Shown in pieces: positions 14,351 through 56,949 of a DNA stretch of 64,000 nucleotides. Position numbers and translations under genes: made by a program. Source of the DNA: Blastococcus haudaquaticus (GTDB lineage Bacteria > Actinomycetota > Actinomycetes > Mycobacteriales > Geodermatophilaceae). The notes under the pieces are model-generated. The model was given only the letters and a program-made list of their open reading frames with translations. It was not told the origin of the DNA and ran no database searches. The stretch's first letter is position 1; each line of letters begins with the position of its first letter. The stretch covers positions 434,001 through 498,000 of the forward strand of contig NZ_OCNK01000002.1 in assembly GCF_900230285.1 (NCBI RefSeq), written 5' to 3'.

Positions 14351-15527
14351 CGGCGCTCCCCGACAGCCACTGCCGGATCTCCGCGCCGTGCTCGTCGAGG
14401 GACGGCGGGGGCAGGCGGTAGGCGGCCTCGGTGGCCGAGAAGGTGATCGGGTTGCGCACCCCGGGGACGGCCGCGGCACCCTCGCCCACCGGGACCACCG
14501 GGGCGAGGCCGATCTCCTCGGCGAAGGCGACGCCCTGGTCGATGGTGTTGATCGGCCCGCACGGCACACCGGCGCCGATGATGTCGCGGAACCAGTCCAT
14601 CTTCGACCGGGTGCGCAGCCGTTCGACGAGCAGCGGCCGGAGCGCGTCCCGGTTCGCCGTGCGGTCCTCGTTGCGGGCGAACCGGGGGTCGTCGGGCAGG
14701 TCGGGCAGGTCCAGCACCTGGCACAGCCGGCGGAACTGGCCGTCGTTGCCCGCGGTGATGATCAGCTCGCCGTCGGCGCACGGCAGCGGCTCGTACGGGA
14801 AGAGGCTCGGGTGACTGTTCCCCATGCGGAAGGGCACGACCCCGCCGGCGACGAAGGCGCTGGTCTGGTTCACCAGGCCGGACAGCGCCGACGACAGCAG
14901 GTTCACCTCCACGTGCTGCCCGCGGCCGGTCTCGTGCCGGTGGTTCAGGGCGGAGAGCACCCCGATCGTCGCGTGCAGCCCGGCCATGACGTCGAACAGC
15001 GCGACGCCGGCGCGGTAGGGCTCGCCGTCGGTGTCGCCGGTGAGGCTCATGAAGCCGGAGATGGCCTGCACGATGAGGTCGTAGCCGGGCAGGGCCGCGC
15101 CGCCCGGACCGCTGCCGAACCCGCTGATCGAGGCGTAGACGACGCCGGGATTGCCCGCCGCCACGGTGTCGTAGTCCAGACCGAAGCGGGCCAGCCCCCC
15201 GGGCTTGAAGTTCTCCACGAGCACGTCGGCGCGCCGGGCCAGTTCCTGGGCGAGGGCGGCGTCGTCGGGATCCTTGAGGTCCAGCGCCACGGACCGCTTG
15301 TTGCGGTTGACGCCCAGGTAGTACGTGGAGACGCCCTCGCGGACCGGCGGCTGCCAGGTGCGGGTGTCGTCCCCGCCGGGGCCCTCGACCTTGACGACCT
15401 CCGCGCCCAGATCGGCGAGCAGCATCGTGCTGTACGGCCCGGCGAGGATGCGCGAGAAGTCGGCCACCAGGAGGCCCGCGAGGGGGCCACCCGGCCGCGC
15501 TCCGGTGAGCGCCGGTCCAGAAGTCAT
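14343..15527 (-). CDS. CaiB/BaiF (class III) CoA-transferase
   Basis: Encodes 394 residues with the class III fold: N-terminal VADFSRILAGPYSTMLLADLGAEVVKVE, the VENFKPGG and YASISGFG stretches, and the catalytic Asp179 in AGVALFDVMAGLHA. The enzyme moves CoA from an acyl-CoA donor onto a carboxylate through an aspartyl anhydride. ATG 15527 is chosen for its GAGGAG ribosome site and because earlier in-frame codons overlap the regulatory palindrome. First gene of the minus-strand catabolic operon, divergent from the amidohydrolase gene. Confidence 0.82.
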   Translation of the reverse strand: MTSGPALTGARPGGPLAGLLVADFSRILAGPYSTMLLADLGAEVVKVEGPGGDDTRTWQPPVREGVSTYYLGVNRNKRSVALDLKDPDDAALAQELARRADVLVENFKPGGLARFGLDYDTVAAGNPGVVYASISGFGSGPGGAALPGYDLIVQAISGFMSLTGDTDGEPYRAGVALFDVMAGLHATIGVLSALNHRHETGRGQHVEVNLLSSALSGLVNQTSAFVAGGVVPFRMGNSHPSLFPYEPLPCADGELIITAGNDGQFRRLCQVLDLPDLPDDPRFARNEDRTANRDALRPLLVERLRTRSKMDWFRDIIGAGVPCGPINTIDQGVAFAEEIGLAPVVPVGEGAAAVPGVRNPITFSATEAAYRLPPPSLDEHGAEIRQWLSGSADV

Positions 15528-15750
15528 GGTGCTCCTCGCTCGCGCCGCCCGGACGGACATCCGTCCGGCTGACGGGCAGTCTCACCACCGTCGCAGCAGG
15601 GTGTCAACCGGCGTCCTCGCGCCCGCGAACGTCTGCTCGCTCCTCCCTTGACACCAGGAGTCGACGTCGCGAAGGTGACCCGCATCGCACCCGGGGCCGC
15701 CCTGCGGACATCTGTCCGGCTGCGTGACGACGACGTCCGAGGAGGAGACG
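15528..15750. promoter_or_regulatory. Divergent promoter region with two matching palindromes
   Basis: Two copies of CGGACATCYGTCCGG occur, at 15554-15568 and 15705-15719. The first is part of a longer palindrome, CCGGACGGACATCCGTCCGG (15549-15568). One copy sits 27-41 bases before the CaiB start and the other 31-45 bases before the amidohydrolase start, an almost symmetrical arrangement. The IclR gene downstream is the natural candidate to bind them. Confidence 0.65.
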
Positions 15751-43262: not shown

Positions 43263-44147
43263 TCAGGCCCCTCCGGTGTCCTGACCGGGCGTCGCGCCCT
43301 CGACCGCCGGGATGGTGTCGAGGACGGTTGCGGCGGCCGCGCGGGCCTGGAGCTCGACCTCGGCGTGCAGCCGGTGGAACAGCTGCTGCGCGCGCTCGGC
43401 CGGCCACGGCTGCGGCAGCAGCTCGACCGGCAGGTGCGGCTCCTGCCGGAGGGCCAGCCGCCACTCCTCCTGCAGCGCCAGCAGGCGGCCGAGGGGGTCG
43501 GTGTGGTGGCGGTCGGCGACCCCGCCGTCCCACCGCTCGAGGAAGCGCTCGTACCGCCGGGCCAGGCCGGGGATGTCCCAGACGTCGCCGATCATCGCCC
43601 CGACGTCGAGGCCGGCGTGCGGCTGGGCGACGAAGGCACGCACGTGCCGGGCCGCCTCCAGACCCGAGAGCAGCCGGTCCATGTCGGGCACGGACGGCGC
43701 GATCCACAGGCCACCCTGGAGCGGACCGAACCCGGCCCAGAGGAGCCGCGTGCGCAGTTCGTGCCGCTGCCGCTGCCACGACTCGGGCAGCTTGAAGCTC
43801 AGCAGTGTCCAGCGGCCGTCCCAGTGCCGGTTGACGGCGCCGGTGCGCCAGATCCGGACGTAGCCGTCGTTGAGCACCTCGACCGAGCGCGGCGTGAGGC
43901 CGTAGTAGACCTGCCGCCCACGCCGCTGGCTGACCAGGCGTCCCCGCGTGACCATCCGCGCGATCGCGGAGCGGGTGGCGTGCGCCGAGACGCCCACCCG
44001 TTCCATCACCTCGATGAGGCTGGGGGTGGCCACCATGACGGGCCGGCCGAGCACGTGCGCACCGTAGAAGGTGAGCAACAGGCTCTCGGGCCGGAGGACG
44101 ACGTCGCCCACCGGCACCTCTGCAGCGTCCGTCTCCATCCGGCTCAT
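43263..44147 (-). CDS. PaaX-family transcriptional regulator (copy 1)
   Basis: Encodes 294 residues. N-terminal winged HTH (about 18-90: LLLTFYGAHVLGRPVMVATPSLIEVMERVGVSAHATRSAIARMVTRGRLV) is followed by the PaaX regulatory and C-terminal domains, including the YYGLTPRSVEVL and WDGRWTLLSFKLPESWQRQRHELRTRLLWAGFGPLQGGLWIAP motifs. PaaX proteins repress phenylacetate-type pathways and are released by the acyl-CoA thioester. It is about 70 percent identical by eye to the copy at 52.9 kb. ATG 44147 is chosen for GGGGTGGG upstream; ATG 44138 is possible. Confidence 0.87.
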   Translation of the reverse strand: MSRMETDAAEVPVGDVVLRPESLLLTFYGAHVLGRPVMVATPSLIEVMERVGVSAHATRSAIARMVTRGRLVSQRRGRQVYYGLTPRSVEVLNDGYVRIWRTGAVNRHWDGRWTLLSFKLPESWQRQRHELRTRLLWAGFGPLQGGLWIAPSVPDMDRLLSGLEAARHVRAFVAQPHAGLDVGAMIGDVWDIPGLARRYERFLERWDGGVADRHHTDPLGRLLALQEEWRLALRQEPHLPVELLPQPWPAERAQQLFHRLHAEVELQARAAAATVLDTIPAVEGATPGQDTGGA

Positions 44148-44170
44148 CTTCGCCCACCCCGCCCGTCCAC

Positions 44171-44197
44171 GGGGGCGCCGCCACCGGCGACGCCCCC
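44171..44197 (-). terminator. Hairpin terminator at the end of the large minus-strand operon
   Basis: GGGGGCG (44171-44177) pairs with CGCCCCC (44191-44197) with inner pairing possible in the loop. It is located after the stop codon of the secreted hydrolase gene and before the PaaX copy 1 start. Confidence 0.55.
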
Positions 44198-44211
44198 GCA
44201 GGAGTGAGCGG

Positions 44212-45627
44212 TCAGGGCTGCCCGGGGCACTCCTCCCCCGCGTTGCAGGGGCGCAGCAGACGCTCCGGCGTAACCCGCACGAAGCGGGCCGGACCGGCGA
44301 CACCGCTCTCCGTGGCGAGGCGGTTCATCGCCCGCGGGGTCGCCGCGTCGCCCCATCGGCCGGTGTCGAGCCGGTGCTCCATCGTGCGCAGCGCGGCCAG
44401 GTGCTCGGCCGCGGTGAACGTGCAGTGGCCCGGCCCGTGGACGTAGGCGGTGCGCAGGAGCTGCGCGTTGCCCGCCCGGCGGACGACGTCCTCGTACGTC
44501 CTGCTGTGCGACGCCAGGGCCGACGCGTCGCCGGTGGTGTTCATCGTCAGCACCGGGATCGAGATCTCACCGCTGGGCGCCAGGTTCGCCTTGGCGTAGG
44601 CGACGGCCTCGGGGTCGGCGCCGATCCGGGGCGCCGCGGCCAGCCGGTCGAGGTCGTCGCGCAGGTCCAGCCCCGCGGCGCGGTACAGCCGCTCGACGAG
44701 CTGCCGGTGGCCGGACCGCTGCAGCTGCTCGCGGTAGTCGACGCCGACGTTCCAGGAGAAGTTGCCACCCGCCCGGTACTCGAGCTCCTGGCGCGGGACG
44801 CCCATGCCCAGCCGGACGGCGTTCTGCAGCGCGTCGTGCAGCTGCGCCTGCTGCGCGGCCAGGTCGTGCCGGCCGGGCTCCGGATCGGCCGGATCGACCC
44901 ACAGCGGCGCATTGTTCATCGCCGCCGCCAGCGCGATGCGCGCCCGCCCCTCGGGGGTGGCCTGCGCCTCCTGCAGGAGCGCCGCGGCCGCAGCGGCGTC
45001 GGGTGGCGTGGGCCCGGGGAAGGGCGGCAGGTCCACCAGGTCGAGGTCGTCCTCGGTGGCGATGAGCTCGTCGACCACGAAGGTGGCGTCGAGCAGCTGG
45101 TTCCACTGCGCCGTCGTGCCGCCCAGCCCGTGGCAGAGCGGGATGGCCCCGTCGATGCGGTCGGGGTAGCGCTCGACGATCGCGCCGGTGATCACCCCGC
45201 CGAGCGAGCCGCCCCAGGCGATCGTCCGCTCCGGGGTGCCGACCCCGGTGGTGAAGGCGTCCAGTGCGGCCATCTGGTCGGCGGGCCCCTCTTCCACGGC
45301 CCACCCGAAGCGGGAATAGGTGGACGCGAGGAGGGCGTACCCCTGGTCGAGCAGGGTCGCGCGCAGGTTGTCCGGACCCGGCATGGGCGGTGTCGGCACC
45401 GGCCCGCCCCGGCTCCAGACGAGCAGGGTCCCGTTCCAGTCGGCCGGCACCTCGTAGCGGAAGGGCGCCTGGGCCCCGTTCTCGGCGGTGGTCGCCCCGG
45501 TGCAGACGGCGGTCCCGTCCGGCTGGGTCTGGCAGGTGACGTCCGCGGCGGCGGCGGGCGGCGCAAGGCCGGCCGCACCGGCCACCGTGAGCGTGACGGC
45601 GGCGAGCAGGCTTCGTCGTCGGAGCAT
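44212..45627 (-). CDS. Secreted alpha/beta hydrolase
   Basis: Encodes 471 residues with a Sec signal peptide (MLRRRSLLAAVTLTVAGAAGLAPPAAA, cleaved near 28). The alpha/beta hydrolase core shows the nucleophile elbow WGGSLGG with Ser141 and a late HGPGHCTF His. Cys32/Cys42 and Cys-rich ends (RPCNAGEECPG) suggest disulfides. Such enzymes cleave esters outside the cell; a role in releasing the aromatic acid taken up by the nearby ABC importer is an attractive but unproved idea. Last gene of the roughly 12.5-kb minus-strand series. Confidence 0.78.
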   Translation of the reverse strand: MLRRRSLLAAVTLTVAGAAGLAPPAAAADVTCQTQPDGTAVCTGATTAENGAQAPFRYEVPADWNGTLLVWSRGGPVPTPPMPGPDNLRATLLDQGYALLASTYSRFGWAVEEGPADQMAALDAFTTGVGTPERTIAWGGSLGGVITGAIVERYPDRIDGAIPLCHGLGGTTAQWNQLLDATFVVDELIATEDDLDLVDLPPFPGPTPPDAAAAAALLQEAQATPEGRARIALAAAMNNAPLWVDPADPEPGRHDLAAQQAQLHDALQNAVRLGMGVPRQELEYRAGGNFSWNVGVDYREQLQRSGHRQLVERLYRAAGLDLRDDLDRLAAAPRIGADPEAVAYAKANLAPSGEISIPVLTMNTTGDASALASHSRTYEDVVRRAGNAQLLRTAYVHGPGHCTFTAAEHLAALRTMEHRLDTGRWGDAATPRAMNRLATESGVAGPARFVRVTPERLLRPCNAGEECPGQP

Positions 45628-45752: not shown

Positions 45753-46943
45753 TCAGCGGACGACGCGCAGGGGCAGCGACTCGGGGCCGATGTGCGGCCA
45801 GCGGGCCATGACGACCGGCCCGGCCGGCTCCACGCGGGAGGTCCTGGCCAGCAGCTCCTCCACCGCGACCCTGAGCTCGGCGCGGGCCAGCGGCGCCCCC
45901 AGGCAGAAGTGGATCCCGCTGCCGAAGGCGACGTGCCGGTTCGGCCGGCGGTCGGTCCGGAATCCTTCCGGTTCGGGGAAGGCGGCCTCGTCACGGTTCG
46001 CGGAAGCCCACATCAGCGCGACCTTGTCACCGGCCCGGATGGCCCGTCCGCCGACCACGGTGTCCCGGGACGCGGTGCGCGCGAGCAGGCGAGCGGGCGT
46101 CCACATCCGCAGGACCTCCTCGAGGTATCGCGGGATCGACGCGGGGTCCGCCCGGAGCCGCTCCTGCTCACCGGGGTGCTCCGCGAGACGGCGGAAGGCG
46201 CTGCCCACCGCGTTCGTCGTCGTGCCGTGGCCGGCCTGCAGCATGAGGCGCACGACGCCGGTGACCCCGTCGGCGGTCAGGCCGTCGCCACCGGCCTGGG
46301 CGACGAGCAGGCCCGTGACGAGATCGCTGCCGGGATCGCCGGGGCAGGCCTGCCGGTCTGCCACGATGCGTGCGACGTAGTCGTAGATCCGCCGGTTCGC
46401 CTCCTCCTGCGCAGCGGTGTCGCCCACCCGAGCGGCGGAGAGGACCTCGCCGGCCCAGTCCTTGAGATCGCTCCAGTCCTCCCGCGGGAGCCCGAGGAAG
46501 GCGCACAGGACGCCTGCCGGGTAGGGGTTGGCGAAGCGGGCCACCACGTCGGCCTCGCCGTCGTCCGCCAGCGACTCGATCAGCTCGCCGGCCAGTTGGC
46601 GCATGACGGGCTCGATCGCCCGGATCCGCCGCGGGGCGAAGAACGGGTTCAGCAGCTGACGGTAGAAGGTGTGCTCCGGCGGATCGGCCTCCAGGGGTGG
46701 TCGGGCCGGACGGGCGGCCGCCGAGTCCGGGATCGTGGCCTTGCGGGAGCTCAGGAACGTGTCGGTGTCCCGGGCCGCGGCGACGACGTCCTCGTGACGC
46801 GTCAGCGTCCAGAAGCCACCGAAACGATCGGCGTACGGGACCGGGCACTCGCGCCGCAGCCGGGCGTGCTCCTCGGTGGGGTCCCGTTCCACCCCGGGGC
46901 CGATCGGGTCCCAGTCGGGCTGGGGTCGGGCCTCGCCGCTCAT
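45753..46943 (-). CDS. Cytochrome P450 (copy 1)
   Basis: Encodes 396 residues, a soluble bacterial class I P450. Haem ligand Cys347 is in the FGSGIHFCLGAPLAR motif, ExxR is Glu276-Arg279 (LEEVLR), and the I-helix reads AGHGTT (237-242): Thr pair kept, but Gly replaces the usual acidic residue. EADPPEHTFYRQLLNPFFAPRR is typical of CYP105/107-like types. No ferredoxin or reductase gene is in the window, so redox partners must come from elsewhere. ATG 46943 has GAGGGAG upstream. Confidence 0.85.
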   Translation of the reverse strand: MSGEARPQPDWDPIGPGVERDPTEEHARLRRECPVPYADRFGGFWTLTRHEDVVAAARDTDTFLSSRKATIPDSAAARPARPPLEADPPEHTFYRQLLNPFFAPRRIRAIEPVMRQLAGELIESLADDGEADVVARFANPYPAGVLCAFLGLPREDWSDLKDWAGEVLSAARVGDTAAQEEANRRIYDYVARIVADRQACPGDPGSDLVTGLLVAQAGGDGLTADGVTGVVRLMLQAGHGTTTNAVGSAFRRLAEHPGEQERLRADPASIPRYLEEVLRMWTPARLLARTASRDTVVGGRAIRAGDKVALMWASANRDEAAFPEPEGFRTDRRPNRHVAFGSGIHFCLGAPLARAELRVAVEELLARTSRVEPAGPVVMARWPHIGPESLPLRVVR

Positions 46944-46982
46944 CGGTCTCCCTCGCCGGCGCTCAGTGCAGTGGGACGGAGC

Positions 46983-47013
46983 GGCTGCGCCGGTCCCAGG
47001 GACCGGCGCAGCC
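46983..47013 (-). other. Very stable intercistronic hairpin after the ABC binding-protein gene
   Basis: A perfect 14-base stem GGCTGCGCCGGTCC (46983-46996) with GGACCGGCGCAGCC (47000-47013) and a three-base loop lies directly after the stop of the binding-protein gene (47020). It is either a terminator or a stabilising stem that lets the binding protein be made in excess over the P450 that follows. Confidence 0.6.
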
Positions 47014-47019
47014 ACCCGA

Positions 47020-48081
47020 TCAGGGGGCGCCGAGCAGGGCGCTGATCTCGGCCGCCTCGGCCTCGGGGACCGGCGTCGGGCGGACGAAGTCCTGCACGTC
47101 CTCGCCGTACGGCGAGATCGCCTCGGAGACCTCGTTGAAGTACGTGTTGCCCTCCTCCGACAGCAGGTAGTTGGCGAAGAGCTTCCCGGCGTTCGGGCAG
47201 GGGCTCTCGGCCGCGAGGCCCAGCCCGATCTCCGGCCCGGTCGTCGGCGAGAGCACCGCCGCGTCGACGGGGGCGTTCTGCTCCTGCAGACCGGCCACGA
47301 TCGCGGCGACGCCGGGGAAGCCGAGGGCGCCCTCGCCCGCCGCCACGCCCTGGGTGGCCGGGACGGCGGAGTTGTACCAGCGCGGCTCGTTCGCGGCGAC
47401 GGCCTCGAGGAACTCGTCGCCGTACTCCTCGCGCATCAGGGCCCAGAACGCGACGTTCGCCGGCGAGGACGACGGCTCGGCGAGCAGCAGCTCGCCCTTG
47501 TTCGCCGGGTCGCCGTAGTCCTCCCACGAGGTCGGCGCCTCCGACACCAGATCGGTGTTGTAGACCATGGTCGTCGGCACGAGGCTGACGACCGGCGTGG
47601 CACCCTCGTCGGACGTGTAGTCCTCGGGGAACTCGCCGGGGAACGCCGGCAGCTCCGCCTCGTTCACCGGCTGCAGCCACCCGTTGCCCAGCGCCTCGCC
47701 GTAGAACGGCGACGAGGTCAGCAGGACGACGTCGGCGACGGTCGCCCCGGCCTGCGCCTCCGTCGAGAAGCGCTGGCTCAGGTCGGCCGAGACCAGCCGG
47801 ACGAAGGACGCCGGGACGTCGTACTGCTCGGTGAACGCCTCGGTGACCGACTGCAGGATCGTCTCGTCCACGGTCCCGTAGACGGTGAGGCAGCCCTCCT
47901 CCTGCGCCGCGGACACCAGCTCGTCCAGCTCGGCGGAGTTGTCCAGCGTGGGCGCCGCGACCTCCTCGCCGCCGTCGTCGTTCCCCCCTCCCCCGCAGGC
48001 GGTGAGGGTCAGGGCCAGCGTGAGGGTCATCGTGAGGGCGGGGCCCGCACCCGGAGCCATGCTCTTCTTCCTGGCGCGCAT
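47020..48081 (-). CDS. ABC transporter substrate-binding lipoprotein, Fe(3+)/AfuA-FbpA-like family
   Basis: Encodes 353 residues. The signal MTLTLALTLTACGGGGNDD has lipobox LTAC. The mature part matches family 1 extracellular solute-binding proteins (AfuA/FbpA-like: ELVSAAQEEGCLTVYGTVDETIL, YNTDLVSEAPTSWEDYGDPANKG, PCPNAGKLFANYLLSEEGNTYFNE). This family binds Fe3+, but also 2-aminoethylphosphonate, sulfate, thiamine and organic acids, and the gene context here argues for an organic anion. Its likely partners are the permease and ATPase 6-9 kb upstream in the same strand. Confidence 0.8.
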   Translation of the reverse strand: MRARKKSMAPGAGPALTMTLTLALTLTACGGGGNDDGGEEVAAPTLDNSAELDELVSAAQEEGCLTVYGTVDETILQSVTEAFTEQYDVPASFVRLVSADLSQRFSTEAQAGATVADVVLLTSSPFYGEALGNGWLQPVNEAELPAFPGEFPEDYTSDEGATPVVSLVPTTMVYNTDLVSEAPTSWEDYGDPANKGELLLAEPSSSPANVAFWALMREEYGDEFLEAVAANEPRWYNSAVPATQGVAAGEGALGFPGVAAIVAGLQEQNAPVDAAVLSPTTGPEIGLGLAAESPCPNAGKLFANYLLSEEGNTYFNEVSEAISPYGEDVQDFVRPTPVPEAEAAEISALLGAP

Positions 48082-48140: not shown

Positions 48141-49424
48141 TCAGCTGGAGCGGACGTCGGCCTGCAGGGGCGGCCTCCCTTCCGGGTCCGGCCGCTCGGT
48201 GAGCCGGCGCTCGATGAACTCGCTGACCGCCGCGTCGATGCGGTCCGGTCCACCGGTGCGCGGGTCGGCGTTGCTCGCGTGGATCTCCAGGACCGGGATG
48301 CCGGCGTCCTCGAGCGCCCGGGTCGTGAACCAGCTGCCCGGGACGTCGTCGGCGACCAGGTGCACGACGCCGTCGACGCCGTGCGCCCGGGCCTCCTTGA
48401 CGTACCACTCGGTGCTCCACGGCGGGGTGTAGAGCTGGTCGGTGATCCCGGCGAACCGGCCGGCCAGCGCCCGTACCGGGTCGGGGCCGTAGCGGAGGTA
48501 CCCGTCGGCGGCGATGGCCAGGTACATGGACCAGACGAAGACCGCGCCGTAGCGCTCCTCGAACCGCCGGTAGAGGCCCAGGTCGTACCAGAGCCCTCGC
48601 CCGAGCCACATCAGCCGCAGGCGCTCGTCCGGCACCACCGCGGTGCCGGCCTCGACCAGCCCGGCCACCTCCTCGTACAGCCGGCGCGCGGCGTCCCGGC
48701 CCCACTCGGTACCGCGGTGCCACTGCGGCACCATCACGGCGGGGATCGTGTCGCCGACCCGTACCGGGGTGGGTCGCGCGGCGGCGACGAGGTCCCGCGT
48801 CCGGCGGTTCCACTCGGCCTGCTCGTTGACCAGGTCCATCACCGACCCGAGCCGGTCGACGTCGAGCACCCGTCCGGTGCGCTCGGTGAGCCAGGCGGCC
48901 AGGTCGGCGATCTCACCGGCCAGGAGGTCGATGCGCTCGGACCCGAACGCCTCCTCCCAGCGGTGCGGCACCAGCTCCCACCACCGCGACGGCACCTCGA
49001 CGGCCGAGGAGCGCTCCAGCGGGTAGAAGTCGGTGCCGGGCAGCTCGGCCCACAGGTCGAAGACCTTGCGTGCCGCGTCGCCGCTGTTCTCCGCGATGAC
49101 GACGGCCGGCTGCGGCAGTCCGCCCCACGGGGCGTCGGCCAGGAAGTGCGACCCCAGCGAGATCGCGTCGTACTGCCGGCTGTAGTCGGGGTACCCGCGG
49201 TCGCGCAGCACCTGCAGGGCGTCGTCGGCCCGCTGCTTGGCCGCCACGACGGACGCCCACCACTGGTTGACCACGTACGGGATGTCCATCGCCCGCAGGA
49301 GCTCCTGCGGGGCGTCGGCGTTCACCAGCGCGATCGGCTCCCCCGCGGCGGCCTGCGCGCGTAGCCGGGCGAACCACTCCTTCTGGTACGCCGTCGCGGC
49401 GCCCGCGGCGGCGAGCCGGGTCAC
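48141..49424 (-). CDS. 2-hydroxyacyl-CoA dehydratase-like beta-type subunit lacking all cysteines
   Basis: Encodes 427 residues resembling the HgdB/BcrC/FldC (D-component) family by pattern: PIALVNADAPQELLRAMDIPYVVNQWWAS, the LRDRGYPDYSRQYDAISLGSHF stretch, a GVDGVVHLVADDVPGSWFTTRALEDAGIPVLEIHASNADPR segment and the terminal RIDAAVSEFIERRL. Canonical members use three Cys to bind a [4Fe-4S] cluster; this protein has no cysteine at all. At the three expected places one sees Tyr/Ser (GYPDYSRQY), Ser/Gly (IAENSGDA) and Asp (LVADDVPGS). GTGA overlap with the alpha-type gene. Function unknown; radical dehydratase chemistry seems excluded. Confidence 0.72.
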   Translation of the reverse strand: MTRLAAAGAATAYQKEWFARLRAQAAAGEPIALVNADAPQELLRAMDIPYVVNQWWASVVAAKQRADDALQVLRDRGYPDYSRQYDAISLGSHFLADAPWGGLPQPAVVIAENSGDAARKVFDLWAELPGTDFYPLERSSAVEVPSRWWELVPHRWEEAFGSERIDLLAGEIADLAAWLTERTGRVLDVDRLGSVMDLVNEQAEWNRRTRDLVAAARPTPVRVGDTIPAVMVPQWHRGTEWGRDAARRLYEEVAGLVEAGTAVVPDERLRLMWLGRGLWYDLGLYRRFEERYGAVFVWSMYLAIAADGYLRYGPDPVRALAGRFAGITDQLYTPPWSTEWYVKEARAHGVDGVVHLVADDVPGSWFTTRALEDAGIPVLEIHASNADPRTGGPDRIDAAVSEFIERRLTERPDPEGRPPLQADVRSS

Positions 49425-50524
49425 GACGGGCTCCCGGCGGCCACGCCGACGACCTCGCGCAGCTTCGCGAGGTCCACGCGGTACGGCTGCCGCGCGAGCA
49501 GCACGGCGGGGACGTCGACGGCAGCTGCCTGGGCCGGGAAGTCCCAGGCGGGCGCCTCGTCGTGCTCCCGGACGACGGCGAGCAGCAGCTCGGCCCGGGC
49601 GCCGCGGACCGCTTCCGCGGTCGCGGCGGCGCGGCGCGCGATGGACGCCGTCGGGGCGGCCGGCCCGCGATCGCGGTAGGCGACGCCCAGCGCGGCCAGG
49701 TCCGCGCCGGCCGGCTCGGCCGGCCCCGCGGAGGCGCCCCAGTCGTGGTCCTCCCCCACCACCAGGCAGCCGATCTCCTGCTCCAGCGCCCGGTACAGCT
49801 CGTCGGTGTCCTGACCGCTGCCGGTGACGAAGACGCGACGGGCGGCGGGGACCTCCCCCACCGCGCCGACCACCACCTGCCGGAGCAGCGGGACGGCGTC
49901 GGCAGCGGGCAGCGCCGTCGCCACCCCGACCGCGTGGAGGGCCGTCGTCCCGGTGAGCCGCGCCTCCCGGCGGAGCGAACCGACCTCGCGCAGCAGGGCC
50001 CGCACCTCACCGGCCGCGCCGACGGCGCCGGCGAGGCGGTCCGGCGTGGCCGGCGTCCCCGTCCAGCGGGTGAGCTGCCCGGCCAGCTGCCGGAGCCGGA
50101 CCTCGTCGTAGCGCGCGGTGTGCCCGGTCGGCAGGTGCAGCAGGTCCAGCAGGACGACCGGTGGGAGGCCCCGGCCCGGCTCCAGCCGACGGAGCTCGCG
50201 CAGCGCGTAGAACAGCTGCAGCGAGGCCTGCGAGTCGCGGGAGACGACGAGGCCGGCGAGGAAGGCCAGGGAGCCGTCGAGCAGCCGGGTGAGCACCGAG
50301 TGGGCGACCGGGTCGAGTGCCGCGCCCAGGACGGCCCGGGCCTCGTCGGACACCACGTCCGGGGAGCCGTGCAGGCGGTACGCGACCGCCCCGGCCGCCT
50401 CGACCAGCTCGGCGGGGACGTCGGCGCCGACGACGCCGACCACCGGCGTGCCACCGGCGGCCAGGTCGCGCGCAAGCTCCGGTCGGGCGGCGTACAGCTC
50501 GGCGAGGCGTTCCGGGGCGGTCAC
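49421..50524 (-). CDS. 2-hydroxyacyl-CoA dehydratase-like alpha-type subunit, Fe-S cysteines lost
   Basis: Encodes 367 residues, paralogous in layout to the following gene: GADVPAELVEAAGAVAYRLHG, a AVLGAALDPVAHSVLTRLLDGSLAFLAGLVVSRDSQASLQLFYALRELR stretch and the EIGCLVVGEDHDWGAS segment. In canonical HgdA-type subunits the Cys positions are CPxxRS, TCDS and a Cys in the VV-acidic loop; here they read DPVAHS, SRDS and DHDWG. The single Cys (IGCLVV) is not at a ligand position. GTG 50524 start, one base after the CaiB stop, so the two are tightly coupled. Confidence 0.7.
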   Translation of the reverse strand: MTAPERLAELYAARPELARDLAAGGTPVVGVVGADVPAELVEAAGAVAYRLHGSPDVVSDEARAVLGAALDPVAHSVLTRLLDGSLAFLAGLVVSRDSQASLQLFYALRELRRLEPGRGLPPVVLLDLLHLPTGHTARYDEVRLRQLAGQLTRWTGTPATPDRLAGAVGAAGEVRALLREVGSLRREARLTGTTALHAVGVATALPAADAVPLLRQVVVGAVGEVPAARRVFVTGSGQDTDELYRALEQEIGCLVVGEDHDWGASAGPAEPAGADLAALGVAYRDRGPAAPTASIARRAAATAEAVRGARAELLLAVVREHDEAPAWDFPAQAAAVDVPAVLLARQPYRVDLAKLREVVGVAAGSPS

Positions 50525-50525
50525 C

Positions 50526-51764
50526 TCAGACCACCCCCGCGTCGACGAGGGCGTCGATGCGCTCCTCGGCGTAACCGCACAGCTCGCGCAGCACCGACCG
50601 GGAGTGCTCACCCAGCTGCGGCGCGGACCCGTCGATGGTGCTCGCCCGGCCGGAGAAGACGATCGGGACACCGGTGGCGTAGAGGTCCGCGCCGGCGCCC
50701 GCGGGGTCGGTCAGGCGGACGACCTCGCCGCGGGCCAGGACGAGCGGGTCCCGGACCGCGGCGCTCGGGTCGCGCACCTCGGCGGCGGGGGCGCCGTGGG
50801 CGTCGAGGGCGGCGACGACCTCGGCGACCGGACGACCCGACGACCAGTCCGAGATGAGCCCGTGCAGCTCGTCGGCGTGGGCCACGCGCCCGTCACGGTC
50901 GCCGAAGCGCGCGTCGTCCACCAGGTCGGGACGGCCGATGGCCCGCAGCACGCCGTGCGCGAACGGGTCGACCGGCGCGCACAGCGCGAACCAGCCGTCC
51001 TCGGCCTGGAAGGTGCCGAACGGCGCGAGCCGGGGCACGGTGGCACCGGTGCGCAGCGGCAGGCCGATCTGCTCGAACGCGTCGAACGGCTCGCAGGCGA
51101 CCAGCGAGGTGAGCGCGCCGAGCATCGAGACGTCGACGTGCTGCCCGGCGCCGGTGCGCTGCGCCTGGAGCACCGCCGACACGGTGCCGATCACCGCGTA
51201 CAGCGGGGCCAGCAGGTCGGCGATCGGCAGCCCCAGCCGTACCGGCGCGTCGCCGGGCGCGCCCGACGTCATCATCACGCCGGACAGTGCCTGGACGATC
51301 GTGTCCATGGCCTTGCCGGTGCCGGGTCCGCCGTCGGCGCCGAAGCCGCTGATCGACGTGTACACCAGCCGCGGGTTGATCTCCTGCGCCCAGGCGGGAT
51401 CGATCCCGAGCCGCGTGGTCACCCCGGCGCTGTAGTTCTCGACCAGGATGTCCGCCCGCCGGACGAGGTCCGCGAGGACCTCGCGGCCGCGCGGGTCCCG
51501 CAGGTCGAGGGTGACGCTCTCCTTGCCGCGGCCGCGCACCAGCATCGACACCGACATGTCCTCCGGCGCGCTGCGGCGGACGGCCAGGCCCTCACCGGTG
51601 ACGTACGGCGAGTTGTTCCGCGCCGGGTCGCCGCCGCGGTGCGGGTTCTCCACCTTGATGACCCGCGCCCCGAGGCCGGCCAGCAGCAGCGTCGCGTAGG
51701 GGCCGGCGAGCGCGTTGGTCAGGTCGATCACGACCATGCCGGACAGGGGACGTTCGGCGCTCAT
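50526..51764 (-). CDS. CaiB/BaiF (class III) CoA-transferase
   Basis: Encodes 412 residues. The class III marks are VVIDLTNALAGPYATLLLAGLGARVIKVENP, VENYSAG, YTSISGFG and catalytic Asp183 (LPIADLLAPLYA). It converts an organic acid to its CoA thioester using an acyl-CoA donor. In anaerobic systems such transferases (FldA, HadA) load the substrate of the dehydratase encoded next door, which is the arrangement seen here. ATGA overlap with the P450 upstream, and one base gap to the dehydratase-like gene downstream. Confidence 0.85.
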   Translation of the reverse strand: MSAERPLSGMVVIDLTNALAGPYATLLLAGLGARVIKVENPHRGGDPARNNSPYVTGEGLAVRRSAPEDMSVSMLVRGRGKESVTLDLRDPRGREVLADLVRRADILVENYSAGVTTRLGIDPAWAQEINPRLVYTSISGFGADGGPGTGKAMDTIVQALSGVMMTSGAPGDAPVRLGLPIADLLAPLYAVIGTVSAVLQAQRTGAGQHVDVSMLGALTSLVACEPFDAFEQIGLPLRTGATVPRLAPFGTFQAEDGWFALCAPVDPFAHGVLRAIGRPDLVDDARFGDRDGRVAHADELHGLISDWSSGRPVAEVVAALDAHGAPAAEVRDPSAAVRDPLVLARGEVVRLTDPAGAGADLYATGVPIVFSGRASTIDGSAPQLGEHSRSVLRELCGYAEERIDALVDAGVV

Positions 51765-52939
51765 GCCGCTCCCCCGGTGATCCGCAGCGGAACCGAGACG
51801 TAGCCGATCTCCGGCATGCGGGCGCCCTCCAGCGGACCGTCGACCTCGAACCCGCTGGTCCCGGTCAGCAGTTCCCCGAGGGCCACGAGGACGGCGAGCC
51901 GGGCCAGTGGCATGCCGGCGCAGCGGTGCCGGCCCCGGCCGAACGCCAGGTGACCGGCGATGTTGGGCCGGTCCAGCACGAACCTGTCCGGGTCGGGGAA
52001 CTGCTCGGCGTCCCGGTTGGCCGAGGCGTAGACCAGGGTCACCGGCTCTGCGGGCGGGATCCGGCGTCCGTGCAGCTCCACCTCCTGCGCCACCGTCCGG
52101 GCGAAACCGCGGTACGGCGTGTACAGGCGGAGGAACTCCTCGACCGCGGCCGGCAGCAGCTCGGGGTGCGCCCGCAGCCGGGCCTGCAGCTCCTGGTCGC
52201 GCGAGAGGTGCACGCAGATCGACCCCAGCAGGATCGGTGGCGCGACCATGCCGACGACCAGGCTCTGGCGCAGCGCCCCCACCAGGTGCTCCTCGTCCAG
52301 CGGCTGCCCGTCGACGCGCTCCGCGAGGAGCGAGCTCGCCGGGTCGTCCTCGACGGGCAGGGGGGCCGTGCGGCGTGCGGCTACGAGATCGCGGGCGATG
52401 CCGTACATCCGCTCGCTCATCTCGTTGACGACCGGCCCGTCCATCCGCCGCCAGGCGCGGACCCAGGCCGTCGCGGTGTCGGCCAGCTGCGGCGCGGTCT
52501 CGTCGGGCAGGTTGAGCCACTCGGTGGTGACCCATGCAGGGAAACGGGCCCCGTACTCCTGCGCGACGTCGCCGCTGGCCCGCTCCACCATCGGAGCCAG
52601 CTCCCGGACGGCGTGCTCGCGCAGCCGCGGCTCGAGCTTCGCGATCCGCGAGCGCTGCAGGGTGCGGTCGAGCGCCTTGCGGTAGGGCGTGTGCGCCGGG
52701 GCGTCGAAGTTCAGCGGCGGACGGCGCAACCCCCGGGGGTCGCTCGGCACGACGGCGCGCACGGAGGAGATGAACGTGCGGGAGTCGGCCGCGGCCGCCG
52801 CCACGTCGGCGTAGCGGGTGAGTGCCCAGTGGCCGCCGTAGGCGTCGGTGTGCGCCACCGGGCAGCGCCCGCGCAGGTCGGCGTACATGGCCAGGGCGTC
52901 GTCCGGCGCGTCCGACGCCAGCGGGTCGAAGTCGCTCAT
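51761..52939 (-). CDS. Cytochrome P450 (copy 2)
   Basis: Encodes 392 residues. Haem ligand Cys340 is in FGRGRHRCAGMPLAR, ExxR is Glu268-Arg271 (EEFLRLYTPYRGFAR). The I-helix site reads GMVAPP (230-235), lacking both the acidic residue and the Thr normally needed for dioxygen splitting. It shares GMVAP and RLY(T/S)PYRG with the P450 at 57 kb, so the two form one subfamily. ATG overlaps the PaaX stop (ATGA) and the stop overlaps the CaiB ATG: one tightly coupled transcript. Confidence 0.85.
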   Translation of the reverse strand: MSDFDPLASDAPDDALAMYADLRGRCPVAHTDAYGGHWALTRYADVAAAAADSRTFISSVRAVVPSDPRGLRRPPLNFDAPAHTPYRKALDRTLQRSRIAKLEPRLREHAVRELAPMVERASGDVAQEYGARFPAWVTTEWLNLPDETAPQLADTATAWVRAWRRMDGPVVNEMSERMYGIARDLVAARRTAPLPVEDDPASSLLAERVDGQPLDEEHLVGALRQSLVVGMVAPPILLGSICVHLSRDQELQARLRAHPELLPAAVEEFLRLYTPYRGFARTVAQEVELHGRRIPPAEPVTLVYASANRDAEQFPDPDRFVLDRPNIAGHLAFGRGRHRCAGMPLARLAVLVALGELLTGTSGFEVDGPLEGARMPEIGYVSVPLRITGGAA

Positions 52940-53802
52940 CGGACCGGCACCGGGATGGTGTGCAGCAGCTCGGCCGCCGTCGCCCGTGCCTGCACCTCGA
53001 CCTCGGCGTGCAGCCGGTGGAACAGCTCCTGCGCCCGCTCGGCGGGCCAGGGGGCGGGGAGCAGCTCGACCGGCAGCCGGGGGTCGGCACGGATCGCCCG
53101 CAGCCACTCGGCCTGCAGCGCCAGCTGGCGGCCGAGCGGGTCGGTGGAGGCGCGGTCCGCGACCCCGCCGTCCCACCGTTCGATGAAAGTCTCGTACCGC
53201 CCGGCCAGCAGCGGCAGGTCCCAGGCGTCGGCCACCATCGCGGCGACGTCCGTGCCGTGGGCCGGGGAGGCGAGGAAGGCACGGACGTGCCGTGCCGCCT
53301 CCAGCCCGTCGAGCAGGCGCTCGACGTCGACGGTCGCCGGCGCCACCCACAGCCCGCCCTGGAGCGGACCGAGGCCGGCCCACAGCAGCCGGGAACGCAG
53401 CTCGTGCCGTTGCCGCTGCCACGACTCCGGCAGCGAGAAACTCAGCAAGGTCCAGCGCCCGTCCCAGTGGCGGTTGACCGCACCGCTGCGCCAGATGCGC
53501 ACGCCACCGTCGGCGAGCACCTCCTCCGAGCGCGGGGTGAGGCCGAAGTACACCGGCCGTCCTCGCCGCTCGCTGACGAGCAGGCCCTTCTTCACCATCC
53601 GTGCGAGGGCCGAACGGGTGGCGTGCGGCGACACCCCGACCCGCTCCATGACGTCGAGGACGCCGGTGGAGGCCACCATCACCGGTCGCCCGAGCACGTG
53701 CACACCGAAGAACGTCAGCAGCACGCTCTCCGGCCGCAGCCCCGGATCCAGCCCGACGACCTCGTCGACCATCGCAGGCGTGGCCATCGCAGGGGTGGCC
53801 AT
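52936..53802 (-). CDS. PaaX-family transcriptional regulator (copy 2)
   Basis: Encodes 288 residues. Same domains as copy 1: winged HTH near 22-90 (LTFFGVHVLGRPVMVASTGVLDVMERVGVSPHATRSALARM), the YFGLTPRSEEVL and WDGRWTLLSFSLPESWQRQRHELRSRLLWAGLGPLQGGLWVAP blocks. The start contains an in-frame tandem repeat, MATPAMATPAM, offering three start codons; the first (53802) has GGAGG upstream and overlaps the permease stop (TGATG). The gene is inside the operon it probably controls, sensing a CoA thioester. Confidence 0.87.
   Translation of the reverse strand: MATPAMATPAMVDEVVGLDPGLRPESVLLTFFGVHVLGRPVMVASTGVLDVMERVGVSPHATRSALARMVKKGLLVSERRGRPVYFGLTPRSEEVLADGGVRIWRSGAVNRHWDGRWTLLSFSLPESWQRQRHELRSRLLWAGLGPLQGGLWVAPATVDVERLLDGLEAARHVRAFLASPAHGTDVAAMVADAWDLPLLAGRYETFIERWDGGVADRASTDPLGRQLALQAEWLRAIRADPRLPVELLPAPWPAERAQELFHRLHAEVEVQARATAAELLHTIPVPVR
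53773..53802 (-). repeat. 15-base tandem duplication at the start of the PaaX copy 2 gene
   Basis: On the minus strand, ATGGCCACCCCTGCG is followed by ATGGCCACGCCTGCG and then ATGGTC, giving three ATG start candidates 15 bases apart, with one mismatch between the copies. It looks like a recent slip-replication event. Confidence 0.7.
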
Positions 53803-55565
53803 CACACCCCTCCGACCCGGGCGCTGACGCCCAGCTTGGACTTCCGGCGGGTGTACGCGAGGACGACGACCAGCACGGTGGCGGTGATCAGCACCAGGAC
53901 CGTCGACAGCGAGGCGAGCAGGGCGAACGAGCCGCTCGTGAACACTTCGAGGATCCGGAACCCCACGACCGGGTTCGCCGTGCCGGCGAGGATGGCCGAC
54001 GCCGTCAGGTCGCCCACGATGCGGATGAAGAGCAACGCCCACCCGGCGACCAGTCCCGGGATCATCAGCGGCACGTACACCTTGCGGAAGGTGCGGGACG
54101 GCCGGGCGCCGGAGATCGCCGAGGCCTCCGGCAGTTCCTTGCCGACGCCGCTCACCGCGGCGTCGGCGGCGATCGACGCCTGCGGCAGGTACAGCGCGAG
54201 GTACCCGATGAGGAGGATCAACAGCGTGCCGGTGAGGTGGAACGGGGCGCCGGCGAGCAGCAGCAGGATGCCGACGGCGATCACCATGTTCGAGATGGCG
54301 GCCGGGAGCTTGACCGCGACGTCGATGCCCTTGGCCAGCGCCGTGCGCTTGCGCGAGACGTAGAGGGCGATCATGGCCGCGCCGAGGATGCCGATCAGGC
54401 CACCGACCAGCCCGAGGAACAAGCTGTTCCGCAGCGCCTTGAGGGTCGTCGCGTCCTCGAACACCGCCTCGGAGACCGCGGCGAAGCTGAGGCTGTCCCA
54501 CGCGATGTCCGGCGTCCAGAAGCCGTTCAGCGAGACCAGCACCAGGGCGAGGATGGGCAGGAGCGTCGAGACGACGACGTACCCGAGCACCAGCAGCCGG
54601 GCCGGCCACTTCCACCCGCCCAGGTCGAGCGTCTTCGCCCGGGCGCCCTTGCCGGCCACGGTGGCGTACCGGCCGCGCCGGAGGATGCGCAGCTGCAGCC
54701 AGTAGGCCAGCCCGACGAAGAGGACGACGAAACCGGACAGACCGATCGCGAGGTCCGTCTGCGGCGGGAAGGTGAACGTCAGCAGCTCGACGATGCGGAC
54801 GGAGATGACGTCGATCCCGGCCGGCGTGCCGATGATGGCCGGGATGGAGAACATGCCGACGCCGAACCAGACGGCCAGCAGGAAGCCGGCACCGAGACTG
54901 GGGGCGACCGCCGGCAGCGTGATCTTCCGCAGCGTGCGGAACGTGCTCGCCCCGGACAGTCGCGACGCCTCCTCGAGTGCCGGGTCGAGGTTGCGCAGCC
55001 CGGCGGAGGCGTTCATGAAGACGAACGGGACGGCGTAGAACGCCATCACCAGGATCAGCCCGTACCAGGAGTTGATGTCCAGCGGGCCCTCGCGCATGTC
55101 CACGCCGAACAGCGCCAGGAAGTCCCGGATCCAGTCGTTGAGCAGCCCGGCCCGCGGTGAGAGCAGCATCGTCCAGCCGACCGCGCCGGCCACCGGGGGC
55201 AGCAGGAACGGCAGGAGCGGAAGGGCGTCGGTCAGCAGGCCCATGCGGGCGTTGGTCCGCTCGTTGAGCCACGCCAGGGCCACCCCGATGACGAACGCGA
55301 GGACCGCGCTGGCCAGGACGAGGACGAACGTGTCGAGCAACAGCTTGCCGAGGTCGGGGATGGCCAGGGTGCGGCGGATCGGGTCGAGGGTGAGCGCACC
55401 GTCGACCCAGAACAGCCGGAGGAGGACGCGCCCCAGCGGGACGACGACGATGGCGATGAGCACGGCCGCGATGAGCAGGGTCACCGCGTCGAACGGGCCG
55501 GGGAGCCGCCGGGCGCGGCGGACCGGCGCCGAGGGGCGGCCGAGGAAGACGTCGGCGGCGCTCAC
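53802..55565 (-). CDS. ABC transporter permease, fused two-half (FbpB/ThiP-like) type
   Basis: Encodes 587 residues with about twelve membrane helices, made of two fused permease halves. Each half contains an EAA loop: LDPALEEASRLSGASTFRTLRKITLP in the first and LPEASAISGARPSRTFRKVYVPLM in the second. This architecture matches iron(III), thiamine, phosphonate or spermidine/putrescine importers. With the ATPase (overlapping GTGA) and the binding protein about 5.7 kb downstream it should form one importer. GTG 55565. Confidence 0.85.
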   Translation of the reverse strand: MSAADVFLGRPSAPVRRARRLPGPFDAVTLLIAAVLIAIVVVPLGRVLLRLFWVDGALTLDPIRRTLAIPDLGKLLLDTFVLVLASAVLAFVIGVALAWLNERTNARMGLLTDALPLLPFLLPPVAGAVGWTMLLSPRAGLLNDWIRDFLALFGVDMREGPLDINSWYGLILVMAFYAVPFVFMNASAGLRNLDPALEEASRLSGASTFRTLRKITLPAVAPSLGAGFLLAVWFGVGMFSIPAIIGTPAGIDVISVRIVELLTFTFPPQTDLAIGLSGFVVLFVGLAYWLQLRILRRGRYATVAGKGARAKTLDLGGWKWPARLLVLGYVVVSTLLPILALVLVSLNGFWTPDIAWDSLSFAAVSEAVFEDATTLKALRNSLFLGLVGGLIGILGAAMIALYVSRKRTALAKGIDVAVKLPAAISNMVIAVGILLLLAGAPFHLTGTLLILLIGYLALYLPQASIAADAAVSGVGKELPEASAISGARPSRTFRKVYVPLMIPGLVAGWALLFIRIVGDLTASAILAGTANPVVGFRILEVFTSGSFALLASLSTVLVLITATVLVVVLAYTRRKSKLGVSARVGGV

Positions 55566-56770
55566 GAGGCCGGCACCATCACCGGCGCAACGGGGACGGA
55601 CGTGCTGCCGGCAGCCGGGTCGGCCGGCTCGTCGACCGGCAGCACGAGCACGTCGTCGGCGTCCACGGAGACCCAGGCCTCCGAGCCGGCCGCGACCAGG
55701 TCCGACCGCGGGCTCCACAGCCGCACGTCGGTCTGGGACGCGCCGACGCTGACCAGGTACTCGGTGTGCGACCCCACGAACAGCGGCGCCTTGACCCGGC
55801 CGGGCCACCGGTTGACCGTCCGGGGCTCGTCCTGGGTGAGGCGGCCCCGCTCGGGCCGCCACATCGCGGCCGCCCGGTCACCGACCGAGAAGCGGTGGCC
55901 GACCGTCGCCCCCACGAACTTCCCGTAGGGCGAGTCGACGACCACGCTGCCGCCGTCGACCGTCGTGACCGTGCCGACGACCTCGTTGATCGCCCCGATG
56001 AACTTCGCCACGTAGCGGGTCGCCGGCCGGTGGTAGATCTCCTGGGGGCTGCCGAACTGCACGATGCGGCCGCTGTCGAGGACGGCGATGCGGTGCGCCA
56101 GTTCCATGGCCTCGGTCTGGTCGTGCGTCACGAACAGCGCCGAGAACCCGAGCTTGCGCTGCATCGAGACCAGCTCGAAGCGGAGCTGCTCGCGGACCTT
56201 GGCGTCGACGTTGGACAGCGGCTCGTCGAAGAGCACGAGCTCGTCGTTGTTGACCAGGGCCCGGGCCAACGCGATCCGCTGCTGCTGGCCGCCGCTCATC
56301 TGGCCCGGGTACTGCTTCTCGAGCTCGCCGACGCCGACCAGCTCGAGCGCCTGCCGCACCCGCCGGGCGATGTCGTCCTTCGCGATCTTGCGCCCGCGCC
56401 GGCTCTGCAGCGGGTAGGCGACGTTCTTGAACGCCGTCATGTGCGGCCACAGGGCGTAGGACTGGAAGATCATGCTGATGTCGCGGCGCTCCGGCGGCAC
56501 GTCCACGCGGTCGGCCGACGAGTAGACGGGCCGTCCGGAGATGCGGATGGACCCCTGGTCGGGTGTCTCGAGGCCGGCGATGGCCCGCAGGAGCGTCGTC
56601 TTGCCGCATCCGCTGGGCCCGAGCAGGACGACGAAGTCGCCCGCCGCGACCTCGAAGGAGACGTCGTCGATCGCATTCACCACCGCCCCGCTCTCGCGGC
56701 GGAAACGCTTCACGAGATTGCTCACCTCCACGACCGGCGTCGAGGAAGCGGTAGGCGTGTCGGGCGTCAT
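55562..56770 (-). CDS. ABC transporter ATP-binding protein (Fe(3+)/spermidine FbpC/PotA type)
   Basis: Encodes 402 residues. Walker A GPSGCGKT (51-58), Q-loop MIFQSYALWPHM, signature MSGGQQQRIALARAL, Walker B LVLFDEPLSNVD, then the switch His in THDQTEAM. A C-terminal TOBE-like domain (about 275-400, VSVGDRAAAMWRPERG, VKAPLFVGSHTEYLV) is regulatory. First gene of the roughly 12.5-kb operon; the promoter must lie in the 179-base gap to the divergent P450. ATG 56770. Confidence 0.87.
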   Translation of the reverse strand: MTPDTPTASSTPVVEVSNLVKRFRRESGAVVNAIDDVSFEVAAGDFVVLLGPSGCGKTTLLRAIAGLETPDQGSIRISGRPVYSSADRVDVPPERRDISMIFQSYALWPHMTAFKNVAYPLQSRRGRKIAKDDIARRVRQALELVGVGELEKQYPGQMSGGQQQRIALARALVNNDELVLFDEPLSNVDAKVREQLRFELVSMQRKLGFSALFVTHDQTEAMELAHRIAVLDSGRIVQFGSPQEIYHRPATRYVAKFIGAINEVVGTVTTVDGGSVVVDSPYGKFVGATVGHRFSVGDRAAAMWRPERGRLTQDEPRTVNRWPGRVKAPLFVGSHTEYLVSVGASQTDVRLWSPRSDLVAAGSEAWVSVDADDVLVLPVDEPADPAAGSTSVPVAPVMVPAS

Positions 56771-56949
56771 CGCGTCGACCTGTCTCTCTGTTCGCGCGGT
56801 GCGAGCTGGGCATTCGAGCGGGTATCGATCAGGCGGCGTTCCGCTTGGGTGATCGGCGTCACGCCTCCCGCTCGTCGCTATGTTTGCCGAATCGACGACG
56901 CCCGTCAACGGTCTGGCGAAAGTGTCGGGATCGGGGATAGCCTCCGTCC
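56771..56949. promoter_or_regulatory. Divergent promoter region of the ABC-led operon and P450 copy 3
   Basis: These 179 bases hold an inverted repeat CGATCA (56826-56831) and TGATCG (56850-56855), 18 bases between arms, in the part nearer the operon start. TGAT-containing repeats are consistent with PaaX binding, but the match is short. A GATAGCCT element 15 bases upstream of the plus-strand ATG could be part of a -10 box. Confidence 0.4.

Follow-up and report, generated by a model that had tools for sequence, protein, structure and literature searches.

A cysteine-poor pair of HGD-D superfamily proteins, kept beside a CaiB-like gene in Blastococcus haudaquaticus and its relatives

Known members of the benzoyl-coenzyme A (CoA) reductase/2-hydroxyacyl-CoA dehydratase (HGD-D) superfamily are oxygen-sensitive iron-sulfur (Fe-S) enzymes. 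What can a pair of such proteins be doing when the cysteines that would hold the clusters are gone? The question is raised by two adjacent genes of Blastococcus haudaquaticus, here called A and B, which lie in the 64,000-nucleotide stretch of DNA that was analysed (contig NZ_OCNK01000002.1, positions 434,001 to 498,000; 'the window'). An initial annotation, made from the sequence alone, had taken them for a dehydratase-like pair stripped of its cluster ligands.

48141..49424, minus strand: A subunit, HadB/BzdO-like HGD-D protein, 427 amino acids (aa), no cysteine (Pfam PF06050, predicted fold)
49421..50524, minus strand: B subunit, HadC/BzdN-like HGD-D protein, 367 aa, one cysteine, C253 (Pfam PF06050, predicted fold)

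Our preferred answer, held with slightly better than even confidence, is that A and B form a heterodimeric enzyme of the superfamily that dispenses with Fe-S clusters, activator and radical chemistry, and performs polar chemistry on an acyl-CoA instead. As far as sequence comparison can establish, the cluster ligands and the old active site have been replaced, the activator is missing, the gene order has been kept and the genes are under purifying selection; the pair probably catalyses a reaction other than the radical chemistry of its family. The initial annotation had likewise proposed a cluster-free pair with a new activity on a CoA ester. The first half of that proposal agrees with the cysteine-poor, activator-free clade described below, whereas the CoA ester is still a presumed substrate.

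Both A and B belong to the superfamily, as judged by profile score and predicted fold. On the Pfam HGD-D profile (PF06050, cut-off 28.4 bits), A scored 128.9 bits (4.3e-37) and B 74.2 bits (1.9e-20), which bears out the family assignment made at the outset. By sequence, the closest solved proteins were BzdO for A (2.4e-10) and BzdN for B (4.6e-8). The AlphaFold2 models reached a predicted local distance difference test score (pLDDT) of 88.7 and a predicted template modelling score (pTM) of 0.89 for A, and 94.1 and 0.92 for B. When searched with Foldseek, the A model matched HadB best (3o3m, template modelling (TM) score 0.78/0.83), while the B model matched HadC (3o3m_B, 0.89/0.88) and BzdN (8s02_B, 0.86/0.84). 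All PDB matches at E <=0.001, 20 out of 20 for each model, were members of the HGD-D superfamily. Both subunits are thus predicted to adopt its characteristic fold, and no unrelated fold was found.

According to PMC11971306, the [4Fe-4S] cluster of BzdO is held by Cys95, Cys128 and Cys380, and the [8Fe-9S] cluster of BzdN by Cys36, Cys73, Cys100, Cys263, Cys293 and Cys327. In the alignment, the three BzdO columns read R83, G115 and V361 in the A protein of the window, although the Cys380 column pairs with D360, not V361, when A is aligned pairwise with HadB. The six BzdN columns read G33, D71, S98, D261, A289 (or A290) and D322 in B. The replacements first listed (Tyr/Ser, Gly, Asp or Trp) were therefore right in kind, if not in every letter.

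Is this loss peculiar to the window? A tblastn scan of genome contigs (E <=1e-3) gave 187 relatives, of which the best 80 were used, so that close relatives are over-represented in the sample. These 80 were all in records titled as actinobacteria, which live aerobically; the genera include Geodermatophilus, Nocardia, Rhodococcus jostii, Amycolatopsis, Pseudonocardia, Streptomyces, Arthrobacter and Microbacterium. In the 80 actinobacterial A proteins that were aligned, the three cluster columns were free of Cys throughout (the five A frames of more than 500 aa, L039-L042 and L103, were kept out of this alignment and examined separately). Column 83 was E44/R17/L10/Q4/V2/D2/Y1, column 115 was G79/A1 and column 361 was A36/T18/V15/P10/S1, with D360 present in all 80. 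A second alignment set 27 A proteins of the clade against a comparison set of 31, made up of 27 frames from 23 genomes together with three sphingomonad sequences and one from Rhizobium. The three columns were Cys in 30, 30 and 26 of these 31; the clade had E/R/L/Q/V at the first, G at the second (27/27) and A/T/V/P at the third. For B, 77 proteins were aligned: column 33 was G in 73 (four gaps), column 71 D in 76 (one gap), column 261 D69/N4/S3/G1, column 289 mixed and without Cys, and column 322 D in all 77. Among the six cluster columns only 98 was ever Cys, in 47 of the 77, the others having S (28), T (one) or a gap (one). To judge from this alignment, the relay subunit B has acids at former ligand positions in most relatives, and one position is still often Cys. 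The statement that one protein has no cysteine and the other a single, unrelated one is accurate for the window, but position 98, Ser there, is a canonical cluster position. The cysteine loss is common to a clade. Since no aligned A protein has a cluster Cys, and B has one at only one of six columns, a sequencing error in the window is not the explanation.

The old catalytic residues are replaced as well. The family's catalytic Glu (Glu65 of BzdO) corresponds to Gln54 in 80 of 80 A proteins, the column being placed by the PE motif of relatives; His131 of BzdO aligns with A column 118, which is mostly T34/S29/A12/G3. In total, 123 of the 427 positions of A are invariant (>=97%).

That no activator ATPase accompanies the pair had been claimed for the window, and the claim extends further. 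None was found in the window, nor any over the cut-off in the whole genome (99.97% complete; TIGR00241, PF01869), in which there were sub-threshold partial matches only. Of 12 genomes that carry the Cys-poor pair, their A frames lacking Cys at all three cluster columns, none had the TIGR00241 activator; of 23 genomes with Cys-bearing relatives, all had it. Because the pair lacks the cluster ligands in A and B, the activator and the catalytic Glu/His that define the dehydratases and reductases, we regard the pair as a variant within the superfamily and not as a dehydratase or reductase.

Comparison with known systems leads to the same contrasts. HadBC (PDB 3o3m) resembles the pair in its two-subunit fold and subunit lengths, the TM scores above referring to predicted models, but the window pair lacks the cluster cysteines, has Gln54 for the Glu and has no activator gene, and the Foldseek-aligned identity is 13-19%. 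HadBC also has a CaiB-class operon partner, HadA. BzdNO (PDB 8s02) is the best single-sequence match of both subunits, A pairing with BzdO and B with BzdN; it differs in that BzdO Cys95/128/380, Glu65 and His131 and the six BzdN cysteines are all replaced in the window, which has no activator ATPase. The double-cubane cluster protein (DCCP; PDB 6eno, 7yyl) has the same fold (TM ~0.7-0.84) and gives a weak NCBIfam match, whereas the window has two distinct subunits without ligands. No cysteine-free member of the HGD-D family was recognised among the papers listed by the literature searches.

The pair belongs to a compact run of genes, which also contains the following two.

50526..51764, minus strand: CaiB-like class III CoA-transferase homologue, Gly216 at the catalytic-Asp column (Pfam PF02515, 2.6e-105)
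51761..52939, minus strand: cytochrome P450, same gene run (Pfam PF00067, 1e-18)

The order on the minus strand is P450, CaiB, B, A, with nearly no intergenic space: the P450 gene is directly upstream of the CaiB gene and overlaps it by 4 bases, 1 base separates the stop of CaiB from the start of B, and A and B share a 4-base overlap. Neighbourhoods were surveyed at 86 loci, over at most nine genes before A and six after it; 84 had a called A gene (the gene caller found none in L079 and L101). The B cluster was directly before A (-1) at 76 of these 84 loci and the CaiB cluster two genes upstream (-2) at 73, so the CaiB-B-A order, which it had been proposed to look for in homologues, is kept across relatives. 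Four of six close relatives (L004, L005, L035 and L036) have B and A fused into a single open frame; gene adjacency and fusion suggest that B and A form a complex.

The ratio of nonsynonymous to synonymous substitution rates (dN/dS), calculated against the 89% identical locus of genome G412 (L037), was 0.176 for A, 0.308 for B, 0.140 for CaiB and 0.206 for the P450, whose counterpart there is 88.5% identical. A and B are under purifying selection. The Cys-poor pair is rare in the drawn genome samples, each of which includes the window's own genome: relatives of A occurred in 3 of the 396 genomes sampled from the phylum at E <1e-100 (26 of 396 at 1e-10), in 5 of 61 of the sample of relatives and in 6 of 394 of the class sample. 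Trees were made from every third clade sequence and rooted at the midpoint. Support for the actinobacterial clade was 0.40 (A) and 0.69 (B), and for a grouping of actinobacterial, Rhizobium and sphingomonad sequences versus the Cys-bearing set 0.92 (A) and 0.84 (B). Going by these comparisons, a pair lacking the cluster cysteines and the activator is carried by many soil bacteria, with much of the protein strictly preserved; it would be a rare natural case of an Fe-S enzyme fold under strong constraint after cluster loss.

How might such a pair work? We suggest that the old cleft between the domains of A still accommodates an acyl-CoA or a comparable acyl ligand; there the former catalytic Glu/His and the cluster would be replaced by a set of invariant residues including D37, Q54-W55-W56, Q84-Y85, D116, K120, Q234-W235, R237, R276, W279, W298, Y301 and D360. 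B, formerly the electron-relay subunit, would contribute in most relatives the carboxylates D71, D261 and D322, with Cys/Ser98 and D259-H260. The chemistry would likely be polar, with catalysis by acid and base or by a divalent metal; one may guess at an acyl-CoA that is hydrated or dehydrated, or cleaved at a C-C or C-O bond. The operon would import an ester-derived organic acid (by an ATP-binding cassette (ABC) importer, or a tripartite ATP-independent periplasmic (TRAP) transporter in sphingomonads) and probably hydrolyse it, and A-B would help break the acid down.

Several observations weigh against this proposal. The five CoA-contact segments of BzdO, of which segment I was positioned by helix rather than by alignment, have 22 of 57 positions invariant in A, which is not above chance (p = 0.28), so that CoA binding by A is not demonstrated by conservation. 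The frequent Cys at B position 98 belongs here too, as does the doubtful activity of the CaiB partner, taken up below. The remaining points come from divergent branches. Among 72,556 records, the only matches were seven plasmid records, from Novosphingobium (four), Croceicoccus (two) and Rhizobium (one), with A proteins 35-39% identical. In six of six sphingomonad records (the two from Croceicoccus look alike), positions 83, 86, 115 and 117 of A are Cys and position 361 is Asn; two cluster cysteines (C83, C115) are thus kept, and C86 and C117 are new. The absence of cysteines therefore does not extend to the widest clade. In part of it a cluster or zinc may still be bound, this CxxC...CxC set possibly forming a rearranged site for Fe-S or zinc. 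Sphingomonad B has no Cys at the cluster columns, and position 71 is P or A (six records). In the B half of fused relatives D71 is also missing, positions 71/98 reading S/A, G/T, L/P or P/T. With D71 absent from both groups, the carboxylate site proposed for B cannot be shared by all branches. At 83/115/361 the A half of the fused relatives reads E/T/P (three) or Q/G/P (one), and Rhizobium A reads P/G/D; Rhizobium B has G/E/S/D/G/D at the six cluster columns. D322 of B was kept in all of the 19 frames examined.

Two side observations may be added on these branches. The sphingomonad A genes with CxxC...CxC are on large plasmids (L124, L125, L127, L146, L147, L148). The fused B-A relatives L039-L042, with D71 and residue 98 lost and D322 kept, are a further divergent branch.

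These alignments suggest that cysteine loss was probably stepwise. A fuller history can be proposed tentatively, and we would not put it above a possibility: a radical Fe-S scaffold may have been turned into an air-usable polar catalyst, with a carboxylate site in B in most lineages, the activator discarded and a CaiB partner without its Asp, the sphingomonads keeping a four-Cys branch.

Among the alternatives, the one that survives best, although we consider it unlikely, is that a metal or a rewired cluster persists: in most actinobacteria a metal would be bound in B through D71, C/S98, D261 and D322; the sphingomonad A proteins would bind a cluster or zinc through C83, C86, C115 and C117. 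The near-invariance of D71 (76/77, one gap) and D322 (77/77), the Glu of Rhizobium at 71 and the CCCC set at 83/86/115/117 in all six sphingomonad records argue for it. According to PMC11971306, the N-terminal ends of BzdN helices 74-85, 103-113 and 327-343 line the [8Fe-9S] site, and these helices match B helices starting at 72, 99 and 324. However, D71 and residue 98 are lost in four fused relatives and D71 in sphingomonads, and an invariant Asp can also serve structure or acid-base catalysis.

About as unlikely in our estimate is a set of pseudo-enzymes, in which A, B and an Asp-less CaiB would bind an acyl-CoA or organic acid as sensor, scaffold or carrier. Textbook catalytic groups are absent from all three partners, and PaaX-type regulators are often adjacent (51 of 84 loci). 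The density of invariant residues in A, together with its dN/dS of 0.18, looks more like an active site. 

The catalytic Asp of class III CoA-transferases is Asp165 of MCT and Asp169 of CaiB (PMC9196870). The CaiB partner passes the PF02515 profile and is a full-length homologue of YfdE (4hl6) and formyl-CoA transferase (7.3e-56), but differs from them in having Gly216 at the catalytic-Asp column. Gly was found there in 80 of 82 aligned sequences, that is, in all 80 actinobacterial rows; the two Novosphingobium rows have Glu and Asp, and both Rhizobium CaiB genes have Asp. Ordinary CoA transfer by the partner is doubtful on this account, and the suggestion that A and B are fed by the adjacent transferase is not supported as it was stated. 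We had considered whether losing the Asp proves that CoA is no longer transferred. That argument was weakened by five CaiB paralogs of the window's genome, which have E, A, S, A and D at the column, and by the PDB matches 10uh, which has Glu there, and 9br7, which has a gap; since paralogs have E, A or S there, the column alone is not decisive for activity. A second CaiB-like gene of the window, 35 kb away at 14343-15560 on the minus strand (PF02515, 3.6e-114), has Ser at the Asp column (L143).

Returning to the proposed cluster-free enzyme, could it instead be an ordinary 2-hydroxyacyl-CoA dehydratase or benzoyl-CoA reductase with other cluster ligands and an activator encoded elsewhere? Family membership and predicted fold would allow it, and when 31 named loci (of the 80) were traced to 29 further genomes, 3 of these had an activator over the cut-off and one more had one below it. 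In the three exceptions, however, the activator adjoins other HGD-D pairs, on a different contig. In those pairs four B columns (71, 98, 289 and 322) and two of the three A columns are Cys, A column 115 being Gly, perhaps through a misalignment. The Cys-poor pairs of these three genomes show the pattern G-D-(S/C)-(D/S)-x-D in B and x-G-x in A. With these findings, the absence of the activator from the 12 genomes and the replacement of ligands and catalytic Glu, we rejected this explanation as very improbable. No activator was found in the seven plasmid records with sphingomonad and Rhizobium relatives, the plasmids alone being searched. Decay or mis-sequencing of the genes is next to impossible, given 187 relatives, the 89% identical copy in G412, dN/dS values of 0.18 and 0.31, no internal stop and no cluster Cys in the 80 A proteins.

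As an observation on the side, Rhodococcus jostii, Citricoccus and Amycolatopsis acidicola (the genomes of L048, L059 and L072) carry both Cys-poor and Cys-bearing pairs as well as activators, the latter pairs and activators being at L149, L150, L151, L154, L155, L156, L159, L160, L162 and L163.

The genes around the core bear on the substrate. In the window they are as follows, the first three lying upstream of the core and the other four downstream.

52936..53826, minus strand: PaaX-type regulator, start uncertain (Pfam PaaX_M, 2.7e-20)
53802..55862, minus strand: ABC importer permease, open frame (Pfam BPD_transp_1, 4.3e-16)
55562..56908, minus strand: ABC importer ATPase, open frame, start uncertain (Pfam ABC_tran, 2.3e-36)
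47020..48081, minus strand: solute-binding protein, directly downstream of A (Pfam SBP_bac_1, 2.5e-16)
45753..47015, minus strand: second P450, downstream of A (Pfam PF00067, 3.2e-29)
44212..45627, minus strand: alpha/beta hydrolase, perhaps tannase-like (weak) (Pfam Peptidase_S9, 3.7e-5; DUF6351, 2.8e-4, below its cut-off)
43263..44303, minus strand: second PaaX-type regulator (Pfam PaaX_M, 3.4e-19)

The true start of the permease is probably near 55568, since its L037 counterpart is 588 aa long. Similarity clusters of one type of solute-binding protein and of permease were near A at 62 and 63 of the 84 loci. Relatives of the window hydrolase were near 35; other hydrolase clusters were of S15 (17/84), sub-threshold PETase-like (12/84) and Abhydrolase (10/84) types. 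As importers and hydrolases recur beside CaiB-B-A, the substrate is perhaps an imported, ester-derived organic acid. The P450s that had been placed in the operon are indeed present (51761-52939 and 45753-47015), but they are not a conserved part of it: their similarity cluster was near just 15 of the 84 loci, and we rejected the P450s as an essential partner. A CapA (PGA_cap) cluster was near 67 of the 84 loci (for example L045:6470-7621), and was not among the window genes scanned. So well conserved an operon, in which CaiB-B-A is joined by an importer and in many cases by CapA, suggests a catabolic step so far overlooked.

The sphingomonad gene set consists of an S15 hydrolase, CapA, a TRAP transporter, B, a CaiB of ~695 aa, A, DctP, a sub-threshold PETase-like protein and a second CaiB. 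The 695-aa CoA transferase of Novosphingobium was considered as a B-CaiB fusion and rejected, its first 324 residues giving no support (probability 0.1); B is the 292-aa protein before it (98.4%). The sphingomonad plasmid members are annotated '2-hydroxyacyl-CoA dehydratase family protein', a name that suggests radical chemistry, of which the Cys-poor sequences would be incapable in the known way.

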